Part shown: piece by piece, positions 2,755 through 8,381 of the stretch
Position numbering within the stretch: the stretch's first letter is position 1
Layout of the letters: every line of letters begins with the position of its first letter
Source: Clostridia bacterium
Lineage (GTDB): Bacteria > Bacillota > Clostridia > Christensenellales > Borkfalkiaceae
Direction of reading: 5' to 3'
DNA: 44,059 nt
Assembly (NCBI GenBank): GCA_017462985.1
Contig: JAFTQB010000062.1
Coordinates: 1 to 44,059, forward strand
The notes under the pieces: generated by a model
The model's database searches: none
Told to the model about the DNA's origin: nothing
What the model saw: the letters and a program-made list of their open reading frames with translations, nothing else
Position numbers and translations under genes: made by a program

Positions 2755-5700
2755 TTACAAATATATTGTCCCATCGGTACAAATAACTTTAATAAAACTA
2801 TAATGACACCAATCAGACAACTTTTCTATGGAATTCCATTCTTGCATGGTTCCCTCATAAGAAACACATTGAATCATGTAGTGATAAAACGCAAATTTAC
2901 CAATTCGTTTTACACTTTTAGAAATTATTATGTCGGCGGAACTATCGCTCCTTACTTCACAGTCAGAAAAAGCATAATCCCCTATTACAACAACACTTTG
3001 CCCGATTATTATTGGTTGTGTAGGATTACAAAACTGAAAAGCGTATTCACCAATAGCAATAACATTATCGGGAATCGTTATACTTGATAAATCGTTATTA
3101 TAAAAAGCTTTATCTGCAATAACCCTTGTTTGCTCGTGAATGATACAACTCGTAGTATTAAGACCCTTTGACTTGATTAAAACGAGATAAAGATTTTCTT
3201 CGTTTCCTAAATAATACGCATTATCGTATTCGTTATAATGCAAGTTGTTACAATTTGTAAATGCAGAAGCGGAAACCTCTTCGATATTGTTCGGAAGGTT
3301 AATATTCTTTAAACTACAACCATAGAAAGCATTATTTTTAATCTCCGTTATGCTTTCGGGAATCGTTATATTTTCACTCAACTGACCATCTAAATATAAC
3401 TTTGCGCCATTATGCAAGGGATTGGAAGAAGATGAATTAAAACCAATCTTACACCAATTTTCAATATCCGTAATATAAACATCCGTTAAATTCTCACAGC
3501 CACTAAAAGCCGAATTTCCAACTTGGACGATATTATCCCCTATCGTTACGCTCAACAAATTGCTACAATTATTAAACGCCTGATAATAAATCAATTTTGT
3601 ATTTTCGTGAACAAGACAATCGGTAATATATTTATCTTTTGCTTTTATTAAAACTAAATAAGGATTACTTTCATTACCTAAATAATAAGCTTTATCATAT
3701 TCATTGTATTGCAAATTCCCACAATAATCAAAAACTCTTATGTCAATTGAAATTATACTATCGGGAATTGTTATGTTCTTCATAGGTGCACAACCATAAA
3801 ATGCATAATACCCTATCTTAGTTACGCTATCGGGAATTACTATTTTCGTTACGAATTCCCATTCCATAAACGCATAGGGTTTAATTTCGGTAACCGTATT
3901 CGGAATGACAATCTCCCCTTCAACCAATATTTCATTTATGTAAAACTTCGAACAAACGGCTACAGGGCTTGAACGTTCATCCGCAAACGAAATATTGCAC
4001 CAATCGGCTATATTTCCTGTATAGTATAAATTATTTATATTTGTGGAGTTAAACGCGGATGATTCAATAACGGATACGCTTTTACCAATTGTGAAGTTTG
4101 TTACTTCATCACAAAAACAAAACGCTTGATAATCGATAGTGCTAACATTATCTCCTATTTCAACATTTGTTAAGCCACTACAATGAGCAAAAGCCCAAGG
4201 ACCGATAGACGTTACACTATCGGAAATTTTTACACTCGTTAAATCCTCACGATAATAGAAAGCGTATCGATAAATTTCCGTAATAGTATTTGGGATGATT
4301 AAGTCCTTTTCCGCTCCCGTATATCCAAGCAAAATTTTTCTATCGACATCATTATAAAAGACGTAACCGTTTTCGTCAACAAGTTTACTCCCATCTTCCG
4401 AAGAATAAATATTTAAAGCATAATAACCGACGTAACCATTATTATTGCTAGTTTTTACTTCAAGAGACGATCGATTATACACTTCTACTAGCTTATAACA
4501 ATTATAAAAAGCATTACCGTCTATCGACGTTACGTTCTCACCTATCGTTACGCTTACCAAATTCGTACACCCGTAGAACGCGTAATCTTCGATCAACGTT
4601 ACGGAAGCAGCTATCACTACTTTAACAATCGTCGTATTTTCATAGAAAACCCTTTTGGAAATAACCGTTACGCCGTCGGGAATAACGATTTCCGTCGCCG
4701 TACCCGTATACTGCAATAACGTTTTCGTCGTATCCGTGGTATATAAAACAAATCCGTTTTCGTCCGTTTTCACCTCGCCCAATTCTTCGGGATTTTTCGT
4801 TACCGTAGTAGCGTTTTGTCCTATACCTCCGTACTCGCTTCCGCCGACCGCAAGCTCCAAGCTTGATTTGTTGTAAACTTCCACCAAGCTGTCGCAATTC
4901 GTAAACGCACCGCTTTCAATATCCGTTACCGAACCGCCAACCGTGATATGCACCAAATTTTCACAGCCCGCAAAAGCACTGCTACGAATAATCACGATCG
5001 TTTCCGAAACAACAACCTTCACGATAAACGTACAACCGTAAAACGCGTTTGCGCCGATCTCTTTCACAGGCAACCCGCCATATGTTTGCGGTAGCACGAT
5101 TTCCGAAGCCGTACAGCTTCCAACGCCGCTTATGGTATAATAAGATTTATCTTCGCTGAGCGTATATTCCAGCCCCTCTGTTTTCGGAGCTTGACAAACG
5201 GTACAGTTTCCGTTTTCATAAGTATGCGCGACAGTCGATTTTTCTTTTTTCATTTGCGCATTTCCGCAATCCGTACAACTGCGCGAATACCACGCGCCCG
5301 CGCAGGAAGAAAGCAAGTTCTGCCATTCGCCGTACGTATGCCCCGTCGCCTTCGTAAATAAGTATTCCTCGTTACCGCACAGCAAGCAAGTACGCGTTTG
5401 GTAGCCGATCGAACAACAGCTTTCTTTTTCACCGTACGCCCATTCGCCGTAGGAGTGTTCGCAAGCCGTCAAATCGCTCCCGTCCTCGCCCTTTACTTTT
5501 CCGAGATTTTTTTCTTCTTGCCCCGTTAATTTTACGATCAATTCGCCTTCGGTATTTACGTAAATACTTTCAATCCCTACTCCGTCAATACCGTTTGTTC
5601 CGTTTGATCCGTTCGATCCGTTCTGACCGTTTTCACCCGTTACCTTGCCGAGATTTTGTTCTTCTCGCCCCGTCAGCTTCACAATCAATTCGCCGCTTGA

Positions 5701-6150
5701 ATTTATGTAAACGGTTTCAATACCCACGCCGTCCACGCCGTTTGTACCGTTTTGCCCGTTTTGCCCGTTTTCCCCTTTCACGCTTCCGCAATCGATAGAG
5801 CTTCCGTTTGAAAGCGTAATGATAAGATTGCCGTCAAGATTGATCGACGCAGAAGAAATTCCTACGCCGTCTTCACCGTCTTCACCCTTTTCACCCTTTT
5901 CGCCGTCGCGCCCCGAAATACTTGCGATAAATTCTTCCAAAGTACCGCTATATCCCAGCTCTTGCGCTTTTGCGTAAACGGTTTGCATATCCCAAACGAG
6001 CGTTTCTTCGCCGTTCGTTCCCGTGCCTCCGGTTCCCGACTCCGCGCCCGTATCGCCGCCGTTTTGCTCGCAACCCGCAAGACCCCAAACGCCAAAAAGC
6101 GTAATCGCGCTCAGCAGTACCGACAATAACAACTTTCCGTATCGTTTCAT
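2755..6150 (-). CDS. Large surface lipoprotein: collagen-like modules plus BspA-type leucine-rich repeats
   Basis: The start is the ATG at 6150: GGAGG sits 6 nt upstream and the signal peptide MKRYGKLLLSVLLSAITLFG with lipobox LAGC (Cys27) follows directly. The frame stays open upstream but has no such support. Residues 80-220 hold three 46-49-residue modules, each a Gly-X-Y run (GEKGEKGEDGEDG, GENGQNGQNGTNG and similar) followed by a DGVGI ... GELIVKLTG strand unit. Residues 230-330 are a Cys-rich region with repeated TYGEW and CxxC pairs. The rest is LRR_5 (BspA-like) repeats of the type VTIGENVTSIDGNAFYNC, interrupted by two YNEYDxAYYLGNE inserts. BspA-type proteins are surface-exposed adhesins or glycan/host-protein binders. 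The ligand here cannot be told. The gene lies behind a structured, terminator-containing leader. Confidence 0.92.
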   Translation of the reverse strand: MKRYGKLLLSVLLSAITLFGVWGLAGCEQNGGDTGAESGTGGTGTNGEETLVWDMQTVYAKAQELGYSGTLEEFIASISGRDGEKGEKGEDGEDGVGISSASINLDGNLIITLSNGSSIDCGSVKGENGQNGQNGTNGVDGVGIETVYINSSGELIVKLTGREEQNLGKVTGENGQNGSNGSNGTNGIDGVGIESIYVNTEGELIVKLTGQEEKNLGKVKGEDGSDLTACEHSYGEWAYGEKESCCSIGYQTRTCLLCGNEEYLFTKATGHTYGEWQNLLSSCAGAWYSRSCTDCGNAQMKKEKSTVAHTYENGNCTVCQAPKTEGLEYTLSEDKSYYTISGVGSCTASEIVLPQTYGGLPVKEIGANAFYGCTFIVKVVVSETIVIIRSSAFAGCENLVHITVGGSVTDIESGAFTNCDSLVEVYNKSSLELAVGGSEYGGIGQNATTVTKNPEELGEVKTDENGFVLYTTDTTKTLLQYTGTATEIVIPDGVTVISKRVFYENTTIVKVVIAASVTLIEDYAFYGCTNLVSVTIGENVTSIDGNAFYNCYKLVEVYNRSSLEVKTSNNNGYVGYYALNIYSSEDGSKLVDENGYVFYNDVDRKILLGYTGAEKDLIIPNTITEIYRYAFYYREDLTSVKISDSVTSIGPWAFAHCSGLTNVEIGDNVSTIDYQAFCFCDEVTNFTIGKSVSVIESSAFNSTNINNLYYTGNIADWCNISFADERSSPVAVCSKFYINEILVEGEIVIPNTVTEIKPYAFMEWEFVTKIVIPDSVTKIGYYAFYGCAPMKNITIPDSIISIDIRVFDYCGNLQYNEYDKAYYLGNESNPYLVLIKAKDKYITDCLVHENTKLIYYQAFNNCSNLLSVTIGDNIVQVGNSAFSGCENLTDVYITDIENWCKIGFNSSSSNPLHNGAKLYLDGQLSENITIPESITEIKNNAFYGCSLKNINLPNNIEEVSASAFTNCNNLHYNEYDNAYYLGNEENLYLVLIKSKGLNTTSCIIHEQTRVIADKAFYNNDLSSITIPDNVIAIGEYAFQFCNPTQPIIIGQSVVVIGDYAFSDCEVRSDSSADIIISKSVKRIGKFAFYHYMIQCVSYEGTMQEWNSIEKLSDWCHYSFIKVICTDGTIYL
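5488..5913 (-). repeat. Three tandem collagen-like/beta modules within the LRR lipoprotein gene
   Basis: Residues 80-125, 126-171 and 172-220 of the lipoprotein are successive copies of one module. The second and third are close at the DNA level too, in the stretches encoding GELIVKLTG and NLGKV. The first has diverged. Confidence 0.8.
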
Positions 6151-6181
6151 AAAAAACCTCCATAAAATAATTTTTTGCAAT

Positions 6182-6215
6182 AAAAAAAGTGTCGTTTCGC
6201 AAAACGAAACGACAC
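6182..6215 (-). terminator. Intrinsic terminator inside the LRR gene leader
   Basis: On the minus strand the stem GTGTCGTTTCG / CGAAACGACAC (loop TTTTG) is followed by seven T. It ends only about 30 nt before the LRR start codon, with no room for a second promoter in between. Full-length mRNA should therefore need read-through. Confidence 0.85.
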
Positions 6216-6357
6216 CCGTAAAAATGTTCTTCCCGCTTTGCTGCGACACAATTTAATAAACAATAATTAAGCAAAGAGCATTATTGTAACGCGAAAAAGA
6301 TACACTTCCACCAAAGAAGTATATGCTCTTTGCAGCTTTTTATTAAATTATGTCGCA
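6182..6357 (-). ncRNA. Candidate structured leader RNA / attenuator of the LRR lipoprotein gene
   Basis: A promoter (6363-6391) predicts transcription starting at about 6356-6357. That is exactly the base of a long imperfect hairpin formed by 6242-6357: 19 pairs (TGCGACATAATTTAATAAA with its partner, one G-U), an internal loop, 11 perfect pairs (GCAAAGAGCAT / ATGCTCTTTGC), and a small apical hairpin (ATACTTC / GAAGTGTAT). A linker and the terminator at 6182-6215 follow. The architecture suits a cis-acting attenuator or a short stand-alone sRNA of about 175 nt. I recognise no known riboswitch class. An alternative reading is a 27-codon peptide, discussed among the rejected items. Function is inference. 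Confidence 0.5.
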
Positions 6358-6362
6358 CTTTC

Positions 6363-6391
6363 ATTTTACCACCTTTTGGATTTTATTGCAA
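6363..6391 (-). promoter_or_regulatory. Promoter of the structured leader / LRR lipoprotein
   Basis: On the minus strand TTGCAA (6391-6386) and TAAAAT (6368-6363) are separated by 17 bp, with an extended TGG before the -10 box. Confidence 0.7.
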
Positions 6392-6432: not shown

Positions 6433-6470
6433 AAAAAGACGAACGCAAAGGCTTTTGGGTTCGTCTTTTT
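6433..6470. terminator. Terminator of the manA-ROK operon
   Basis: Perfect 12-bp arms (AAAAAGACGAAC / GTTCGTCTTTTT) surround a 14-nt loop. It lies 60 bp beyond the stop of the isomerase-kinase gene and works on paper in both directions. Confidence 0.75.
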
Positions 6471-6530: not shown

Positions 6531-8381
6531 TTACAGCAAAAGCGCCGCCGCGCCTAATATGCCCGCCCAATTGCCAAGCTCCGCAATCAAAATTTTTACC
6601 TGCGGCCCAAGCTCGCCAGCGAAAATTTCTTCGTCCAAACGCTTTTGCAACGGCTTCACGAGGGTATCCCCTTGCGCGCATACGCCGCCGCCCAAAATTA
6701 CGACTTCGGGACGGAAAATATTGACGAAATTCACGATCCCGCAAGCCAAATGCCCGATATACCAATCCACCGCCTCTTTCGCGTATTCGTCGATATCTTG
6801 GTAATCGAACGCCGTTTTACCCGTTACGTTCTCCAAAGCGCCGATCTCCCACATCTTGCTATCCTTATGCGCTTGCATAACGCGTTTGGTTTCGCGAATG
6901 AGTCCCGTTGCCGAAGCGTACGCTTCCAAGCAGCCCTTTCTGCCGCAAGTACACCGTTCTCCGCCCGCGACGATCACCGAATGACCAAGCTCCGCGCCCG
7001 CGCCGCGGTTGCCTTCGACGAGCTTCCCATCGATGATGATGCCGCCGCCCACGCCCGTGCCGAGCGTTAATAAAATCGCAGAATCGTATTCTCTTGCCAC
7101 GCCGAATTTCACTTCCCCGAGCGCGGCGACGTTCGCGTCGTTGGCGATTTTCACCGTCAAGCCCGTAAGCGCCTGCACTTTTTCGCCGATCGCGAAATCC
7201 TGCCAGCCCAAATTATTCGAATAAATCACGTTGCCCGCCTTGCTGTCGATCATCCCGGGAACGCCCATGCCAATCCCCTCGACGTCGCCCTTGGAAAGCC
7301 CTGCCGCGCAAAGCAATTTCTCCACGAGCGCGGCGATATTTTCAGATACCTTTTCCGCGCCGCCCTCGCTTTGCGTAGGCGCTTTATCCGATACCACGAT
7401 ATTTCCAAGATCGTCTACGATCCCGCCTTTGATAAAGGTTCCGCCAAGGTCGATACCCACGTAATATTTTCTTACTTCCGCCACAATCAATACTCCTTTC
7501 CCTTTGATTTGCACGCTTTCGCTGCTTGCAGGCAGGAAGAAGCTATCCCCCGCCCGAAACTCCTCGCCCGCGATCTCGCCGTTGCCGCTGACCGCCGTTA
7601 CGCATTTAAACGAGTTTTTATCCATCGGCAACGCCGTTTCGCCGTCTAAAACGATTTTCGTCGTCGTAAAATATCTGCTCGCGCCGATCGTTTCGCCGTA
7701 ACCGCGAGAAACACAAAGCGGTCTGCCCTCGTATTTTTTCAGCGAGGTTACTTTGAGCGCTTTATCGATATGCAATTCGCGAGGATTGCCGTTTTTATCC
7801 GTTCTGCCGTAATCGTACACGCGATAGGTTAAGTTGCTGTTTTGCTGGATCTCGCAGATCAAGCAACCGCCGCCGATAGCATGAATCGTGCCCGAGGGAA
7901 TAAAATAGCAATCGCCCGCTTTGACTTCAAAGAAATTCAACAGCTCCGTGAGCGTATTATTTTTAATCGCTTGTTCGTATTCCTCTTCGGTTACGTCGCG
8001 GGAAAAGCCGACGTACAGTCCCGCGCCCTCGTCCGCCGCCACGACGTACCACATTTCCGTTTTACCGAAGCTGTTTTCGTTTTTCAGCGCGTAATCGTCG
8101 GAGGGGTGCACCTGCACGGATAAATTGTCCTTTGCGTCGATAAATTTAATGAGCATCGGGAAGAACGGGAACGCCTCGCAATTTTTGCCAAGTTCCTCTT
8201 TCGTTACCGCCTCGGCAAGCGTTTTACCGTCCGCGATACGCGTTGGCCCGTCTTTATGAAAGGAAAGCTCCCAGCTTTCCGCAACGGGCGTTTTATCCGT
8301 CTGTTTGCCGTAAAATTCTTTTAATCTCATTCCGCCCCAAAGATTGTCTTTACATTCGGGGTACAATCGAATTGCTTGCAT
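6531..8381 (-). CDS. Fused mannose-6-phosphate isomerase and ROK sugar kinase
   Basis: One uninterrupted 616-codon frame joins two complete enzymes. Residues 1-299 are a class I mannose-6-phosphate isomerase (ManA). The metal-site motif QVHPSD (90-95), E109 in KTEMWY, H167 in GTIHAIG and the YDYGR motif (189-193) are all present. From residue 300 a full-length ROK kinase begins: DLGGTFIKGG (311-320, phosphate loop), NDAN with catalytic D415, and the zinc site H467 with C477, C479 and C484 in CTCGRKGC. The isomerase interconverts mannose-6-P and fructose-6-P. The kinase phosphorylates a free hexose, by family glucose, mannose or fructose. If it takes mannose, one polypeptide would carry mannose to fructose-6-P (inference). 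An internal ribosome-binding site precedes a GTG at residue 300. Translation is coupled to the upstream SGNH gene (2-nt gap). Confidence 0.93.
   Translation of the reverse strand: MQAIRLYPECKDNLWGGMRLKEFYGKQTDKTPVAESWELSFHKDGPTRIADGKTLAEAVTKEELGKNCEAFPFFPMLIKFIDAKDNLSVQVHPSDDYALKNENSFGKTEMWYVVAADEGAGLYVGFSRDVTEEEYEQAIKNNTLTELLNFFEVKAGDCYFIPSGTIHAIGGGCLICEIQQNSNLTYRVYDYGRTDKNGNPRELHIDKALKVTSLKKYEGRPLCVSRGYGETIGASRYFTTTKIVLDGETALPMDKNSFKCVTAVSGNGEIAGEEFRAGDSFFLPASSESVQIKGKGVLIVAEVRKYYVGIDLGGTFIKGGIVDDLGNIVVSDKAPTQSEGGAEKVSENIAALVEKLLCAAGLSKGDVEGIGMGVPGMIDSKAGNVIYSNNLGWQDFAIGEKVQALTGLTVKIANDANVAALGEVKFGVAREYDSAILLTLGTGVGGGIIIDGKLVEGNRGAGAELGHSVIVAGGERCTCGRKGCLEAYASATGLIRETKRVMQAHKDSKMWEIGALENVTGKTAFDYQDIDEYAKEAVDWYIGHLACGIVNFVNIFRPEVVILGGGVCAQGDTLVKPLQKRLDEEIFAGELGPQVKILIAELGNWAGILGAAALLL
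7482..7499 (-). promoter_or_regulatory. Internal ribosome-binding site and GTG start at the ManA/ROK boundary
   Basis: AAAGGAG (7499-7493), an 8-nt spacer and GTG (7484-7482) sit in frame exactly where an ordinary ROK kinase would begin. Initiation here would give a 317-residue stand-alone kinase, a normal length for the family. Confidence 0.6.

Follow-up and report, generated by a model that had tools for sequence, protein, structure and literature searches.

A candidate riboswitch-like attenuator RNA ahead of surface-protein genes in uncultured Clostridia

In the fluoride and preQ1 riboswitches, a pseudoknot in the aptamer competes with a terminator or an antiterminator. The c-di-GMP riboswitches often control surface genes in Clostridia. 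A further riboswitch candidate found before surface-protein genes, the SLH motif, is described in passages of Stav et al. (2019, PMC6429828), which place it in Synergistaceae, Clostridia, and Negativicutes, state that in about 60% of its 80 examples the gene that follows encodes an S-layer-homology protein, and suggest c-di-GMP for it. Here, we analyzed a stretch of 44,059 nucleotides from a Clostridia bacterium (GCA_017462985.1, contig JAFTQB010000062.1; "the window") and describe a 176-nt leader on its minus strand. Whatever its signal, the leader most probably functions as a cis-acting, riboswitch-like transcription attenuator that operates through two exclusive folds.

We compared the leader with known RNA families. 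Using Rfam 15, the window gave no match above the gathering cut-off, the best sub-threshold match being PyrR (21.4 of 54 bits). Related loci from the same order (20 loci) yielded two tRNAs only, and among 20 class-level loci, searched with E up to 0.5, nothing exceeded the threshold on the element; a SNORA68 match below the cut-off overlapped the first 26 nt of one class-level copy. The literature that was searched contained no description of the element, which does not in itself show its absence from print. As with the SLH motif in the passages cited above, we are dealing with an orphan candidate, lacking an assigned ligand, before surface-protein genes. The SLH motif, as presented there, mostly precedes S-layer-homology proteins, whereas an SLH domain was detected in none of the 31 class-level downstream proteins of our family (28 complete) and was absent among the 25 commonest of the 62 order-level Pfam families. 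The family is set apart from the SLH motif by its downstream genes, rather than by a comparison of consensus structures, and the two could be related or even identical. Given the lack of an Rfam fit and of an SLH domain downstream, we therefore regard it as a class that has no name yet but is of a familiar kind.

The competition proposed below, between a pseudoknot and a terminator or antiterminator, resembles that of the fluoride and preQ1 riboswitches, but the leader has no Rfam match and its promoter is locked to its first stem (P1). The c-di-GMP riboswitches differ from it in the same Rfam respect and in their hosts, since the genomes carrying the leader mostly lack GGDEF. This domain was found in 4/57 genomes of the genus, one of which (G029) carries the leader, and 41 of the 42 leader-bearing genus genomes, many of them incomplete, gave no GGDEF match, making c-di-GMP an unlikely signal. 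A c-di-AMP cyclase was present in 56/57 genus genomes, which allows c-di-AMP without supporting it. Like the raiA motif and 6S-like RNA, the leader is a structured RNA of Bacillota; it differs from both in its covarying antiterminator, in its usual position shortly before start codons, and in having no Rfam match.

The leader (6357-6182; all features of the locus are on the minus strand) folded with −64.2 kcal/mol, compared with a shuffled mean of −34.9 kcal/mol (z = −8.1), and none of 200 shuffles was as good. An earlier note, made from the letters of the window, had proposed a structured leader for a leucine-rich repeat (LRR) protein gene, ending in a terminator about 30 nt from the start codon, and each part of this proposal was borne out. 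The intrinsic terminator and its U tract (6182-6217) comprise arms at 6217-6204 and 6200-6187, forming 14 pairs, and TTTTTTT extending to 6182. The ATG (6150-6148) of a BspA-type LRR lipoprotein gene (2755-6150, 1131 aa; LRR_5, E = 5.7e-113), the proposed controlled gene, lies 31 nt past the U tract, and a sequence scan placed the ribosome-binding site GGAGG at 6157-6161. On the other side of the leader, a predicted promoter-like site (6391-6363) consists of TTGCAA (6391-6386), a 17-nt spacer, and a TG-extended TAAAAT (6368-6363). An intrinsic terminator is thus situated between promoter and start codon, as in an attenuator. In agreement with the earlier note, a promoter scan of the minus strand found no promoter-like site between the terminator and the ATG; a second match was located at 6346-6318, within the leader. 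Directly upstream of the leader on the same strand is one ORF (6531-8381) with phosphomannose-isomerase-like and ROK kinase domains, an apparent fusion. Between this gene and the leader promoter, a hairpin in 6434-6470 (6438-6445 with 6459-6466) is accompanied by T runs on each strand and may stop transcription arriving from either direction.

Within the leader, the P1 5′ strand (6340-6357) is located at or adjoining the transcription start expected from the −10 spacing, and covaries with the P1 3′ strand (6242-6259). The closing stem P1 has 18 pairs in the minimum free energy (MFE) fold and 19 when an 11-bp helix, P2 (6323-6333 with 6281-6271), is formed, at a cost of 0.8 kcal/mol above the MFE; the long hairpin of 19 pairs and 11 perfect pairs described earlier corresponds to this second fold. 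The P3 hairpin, which has a TTGGT loop, occupies 6300-6324. It is followed by a strand termed J, TATCTTTTTCGC (6291-6302), the 5′ half of a proposed pseudoknot, and by GCGTTACA (6285-6292), which is conserved in a genus-level alignment and left unpaired by the model, and is a possible signal-binding part. The P2 3′ strand (6271-6281) and the P1 3′ strand come next, and then a switch strand, Y, with a linker, GCAAAGCGGGAAGAACATTTTTAC (6218-6241), leads to the terminator.

The same genome contains three copies of the leader, the two further ones at 82 and 76% identity (BLASTN). BLASTN with the leader found matches in 20/61 genomes tried, 19 of them within the genus, its own genome counted. We built two covariance models, R1 from 30 copies and R2 from 99 copies. 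R1 (E up to 0.01) matched 42/57 genus genomes, with up to 9 matches per genome, and 41/297 sampled genomes of the order (18/125 genera), while R2 (E up to 0.001) matched 51/391 sampled genomes of the class (34/223 genera); these E-values are rough, and matches with E above ~1e-5 include reverse-strand echoes of the near-palindromic stems. One class-level genus was matched in 10/12 genomes, with up to 8 copies, and a phylum-level sample of 299 genomes gave the window's own genome as the sole match. Scanning with a DNA pattern gave 68 stretches; every one carries the title of a MAG from a Clostridia or Clostridiales bacterium, and the sample names include roe deer, water deer, goat, sheep, and Lapin. 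Two sequence patterns had 0 matches in viral contigs, and plasmids gave no leader match. Judged by these searches, the window leader belongs to a larger family of related RNAs in many uncultured Clostridia.

The working sets comprised 112 order-level and 38 class-level copies, 11 of the latter positioned by search coordinates without realignment. Before alignment, L050 (truncated) and L154 (no match at 1e-6; 99 matches from 100 loci) were left out, as were two reverse-strand matches, and L133, which lacks its 5′ end, was omitted from the representatives and promoter counts. To score each helix, strand pairing within one copy was compared with that of strands exchanged between copies (matched-vs-swapped test). 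Three sets were used: 53 order-level copies below 80% identity (51 for terminator tests, without L167 and L112, in which no terminator was found); 20 representatives of the 38 class-level copies (L300 and L304, in which J was not located, were left out of the swap tests); and 23 hand-picked copies from 19 families.

The order-level set gave z values of −21.0 for P1, −27.5 for P2, −12.3 for P3, and −16.5 for the terminator. The corresponding values for P1 and the terminator were −12.3 and −9.6 in the class-level set (three controls, −2.1 to +0.3), and −10.3 and −11.5 in the 23-copy set (five controls, −1.3 to +0.8), all from tests that correct partly for the kinship among the representatives. 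P2 was 7 bp or longer in 53/53 representatives, with 53 different 5′ strands, and the terminator was found in 95/99 aligned copies. In an alignment fitted to its own structure (A3), 21/25 P1/P3 pairs showed changes on both sides, and its covariation score was 0.354; shuffling lowered it to 0.160 and sliding to 0.085 or less, and 0/500 shuffles scored as high. By this comparison of copies, compensatory changes maintain the pairing of P1, P2, P3, and the terminator alike, and these helices covary strongly, which is the support that the earlier note had sought for the long stem. In addition, copies of different families share the GGT of the P3 loop and large parts of the J and linker sequences. 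The alignments therefore contain what a riboswitch would have, a conserved and covarying domain that resembles an aptamer and is followed by an expression platform.

A mobile repeat or a DNA-level palindrome was rejected because the P2 pairing is kept while its sequence wholly changes. The multiple copies per genome, which differ in their flanks, would be expected of a MITE-like element carrying a promoter and terminator by chance, an explanation that we regard as extremely improbable in view of the divergence of the copies (53 representatives below 80% identity), the compensatory changes that keep the RNA pairing, and the fact that most copies precede a same-strand start codon at a similar distance.

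The strand Y, just 3′ of P1, has two conserved partners: the J strand after P3 or the terminator. The J:Y pairs of the pseudoknot are TATCTTTTTCGC/GCGGGAAGA in the window, GTATTTTCTCTG/CAGGGAGGATAC in L252, and GTGCCTATTTCGC/GCGGGATGGTGC in L160. The pseudoknot reached z = −4.5 in the order-level set, hardly above a control pairing of the P3 5′ strand with Y (z = −4.1), so the case for it comes from the class-level set (z = −5.1; three controls, −2.1 to +0.3) and the 23-copy set (z = −5.6; five controls, −1.3 to +0.8). In the antiterminator of the window, GCAAAGCG pairs with CGTTTTGC (6206-6199) as an inner part, and GTGTCG of the P1 3′ strand (6249-6244) pairs with CGACAC of the terminator 3′ arm (6194-6189) as an outer part; the 3′ partner thus spans 6189-6206. 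The inner part gave z values of −12.5 (order), −7.5 (class), and −9.1 (23 copies), and the whole antiterminator gave −13.5 in the order-level set. The outer part was weak (−3.6, −0.7, and −2.4, respectively). Both pairings of Y therefore pass the matched-vs-swapped tests, the pseudoknot less clearly than the inner antiterminator, and the outer antiterminator appears plausible with weaker support.

The earlier note had suggested a different alternative fold, in which CTTTGCT of the P2 3′ strand pairs with AGCAAAG. The window copy can form this duplex (−7.9 kcal/mol at best), with AGCAAAG at 6242-6236 rather than 6232-6238 and CTTTGCT at 6276-6270. As a conserved switch, it was rejected: over the 53 diverged copies the P2-to-AGCAAAG pairing was no better than swapped (z = −1.4). 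The AGCAAAG stretch does have a conserved alternative partner, namely the loop and 3′ arm of the terminator (6206-6189).

The folding model predicts that the two pairings of Y are mutually exclusive and that the antiterminator also excludes the terminator. When the P1 5′ strand was omitted and nothing was forbidden, the whole antiterminator was the best fold in 46/51 copies and the inner antiterminator in 47/51; L039 formed the inner part only, and four of the 51 (L041, L129, L147, and L151) still favored the terminator in the absence of that strand. With the terminator forbidden, the antiterminator fold had a mean of −27.8 kcal/mol, against −16.6 kcal/mol for the terminator hairpin alone, which covers a shorter stretch. 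An antiterminator that is conserved and exclusive with the terminator is a further property of attenuators. Ribosome-mediated (leader-peptide) attenuation was rejected, a conserved leader ORF being what it calls for; an SD-preceded closed ORF occurred in just 4/52 copies, with starts between leader positions 38 and 128, all TTG.

The MFE folds of the whole leader, which are pseudoknot-free by method, contained the terminator in 33/51 copies and the inner antiterminator in 18/51, and the resting state is thus predicted non-uniformly. Such a split might reflect a signal-free stochastic switch, in which co-transcriptional folding alone would set cells on or off for surface antigens, a usual target of on/off variation. 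A pure folding race needs none of the P3-loop GGT, J, and linker sequences that recur across families, and we consider this explanation unlikely.

The position of the promoter relative to P1 was compared across copies. In the order-level set, a promoter-like pair was present just upstream in 107/111 copies, with the −10 ending a median of 5 nt before P1, compared with 6/111, 8/111, and 3/110 in shifted windows. All 38 class-level copies had a −10, exactly 5 nt away in 33 and with the extended TG in 36; under a stricter criterion, which demanded the TG as well, the shifted windows yielded 0, 2, and 0 of 38. Based on this fixed spacing, the RNA should start at the base of P1. To our knowledge, a fixed distance between the −10 and the first stem is unusual among riboswitches. 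It represents a design constraint that is directly testable.

We propose the following mechanism. Transcription would begin at the first nucleotides of P1, and the RNA would fold into P1, P2, and P3 with the pseudoknot between J and Y. With Y occupied, the terminator would form, and transcription would stop ~30 nt before the start codon of the surface protein (off). Should the pseudoknot, perhaps together with P1, fail to hold, Y would pair with the terminator loop and, once P1 opens, the P1 3′ strand would pair with the terminator 3′ arm. The resulting antiterminator would exclude the terminator and allow the polymerase to read into the gene (on). For the direction of control, we infer that the gene is turned off by a signal that stabilizes the pseudoknotted form, and a small molecule is more likely than a protein to be this signal.

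The placement of the family relative to genes bears on this mechanism. A called ORF followed within 330 nt in 106/112 order-level copies, and in 83/106 the start codon was 40-75 nt past the conserved part. For 88 of these ORFs, the scan identified a ribosome-binding site as well as a terminator, with a median of 29 nt from terminator arm to start. Six of the 112 copies lacked a called gene within 330 nt; L063, L144, and L145 lie 53-207 nt from the end of their contig or locus, and in L041, L147, and L148 the sequence continues. These last three copies, together with a fixed 5′ end at P1, would suit a stable, stand-alone small RNA of ~175 nt, with its 5′ end in P1 and its 3′ end in the terminator, for which read-through into the gene is accidental. 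The earlier note had ranked this as the main alternative. It leaves the covarying inner antiterminator, which would be superfluous for a small RNA, and the usual distances to the start codon and ribosome-binding site unexplained, and now seems very unlikely. The reading as a riboswitch-like attenuator leader of no known class, also offered in the earlier note, is supported by the covarying stems, the conserved antiterminator that excludes the terminator, the terminator close before the ribosome-binding site, and the lack of an Rfam family.

By a crude script, 77/106 order-level ORFs had a signal-like N-terminus, and 66 of those had a lipobox-like pattern; 49/106 ran off the locus end. Pfam families in 103 of them (L164, L073, and L081 left out) included LRR_5 (54), Flg_new (11), collagen repeats (8), and double zinc ribbons (6). 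In the class-level set, 31/37 ORFs were searched (28/31 complete, four of them extended; L242, L248, and L251 were cut by contig ends), giving LRR_5 (5), Cu_amine_oxidN1 (5), DUF6273 (2), and single cases of M23, GDSL, and others. Non-envelope genes, encoding a glycosyltransferase, ROK, and Band 7, were also found downstream. Envelope proteins thus appear to be common targets, yet some targets do not fit. A regulator of LRR genes as such was rejected: the window's genome has 85 LRR_5 matches but three leaders, one of which precedes a lipoprotein without a visible simple LRR pattern.

With regard to the signal, we tentatively favor an undescribed riboswitch class whose ligand would be a molecule different from c-di-GMP and which would coordinate envelope proteins, a reading that we hold with slightly less than even confidence. 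As the aptamer would begin at the first transcribed nucleotides, promoter and aptamer would constitute one fixed cassette. The same two folds could instead respond to a trans-acting RNA-binding protein, which differs from the former explanation in the signal only. A protein could read the short conserved motifs, the P3-loop GGT and GCGTTACA, and the several copies per genome (up to 9) would make a regulon; conserved pseudoknots are more typical of small-molecule aptamers, a linked regulator did not come to light incidentally, and we regard a protein signal as possible and rather doubtful. As an orphan riboswitch candidate, the leader is frequently linked to genes for LRR proteins, lipoproteins, and stalk-domain-like proteins, which points to an envelope or host-contact signal. 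It would supply a regulon marker and a testable mechanism of surface-protein control in mostly uncultured gut Clostridia.

Several additional observations were made at individual loci. Small proteins of 65-82 aa directly follow the class-level leaders of L240, L250, L253, L261, L262, and L264. Those of L240, L250, and L261 had no Pfam match, and a PHROGs search with ten small downstream proteins, including five of these six, gave one weak match (L240). Two copies (L317:2076-2203 and L318:4016-4144) are in unannotated human-faeces scaffolds, MT835845 and MT837627, that are phage by filing only. In L306 (3685-4042), two tandem leaders are located ~90 nt apart on the same strand. The Gut-1 RNA (RF01706), given as human gut only in the consulted part of a 2010 paper (PMC2864571), was detected in L241 (1196-1272, 58.7 bits) and, below the threshold, in L264 (1837-1905, 33.4 bits), in both cases on the strand of the leader and ~195-230 nt ahead of it.
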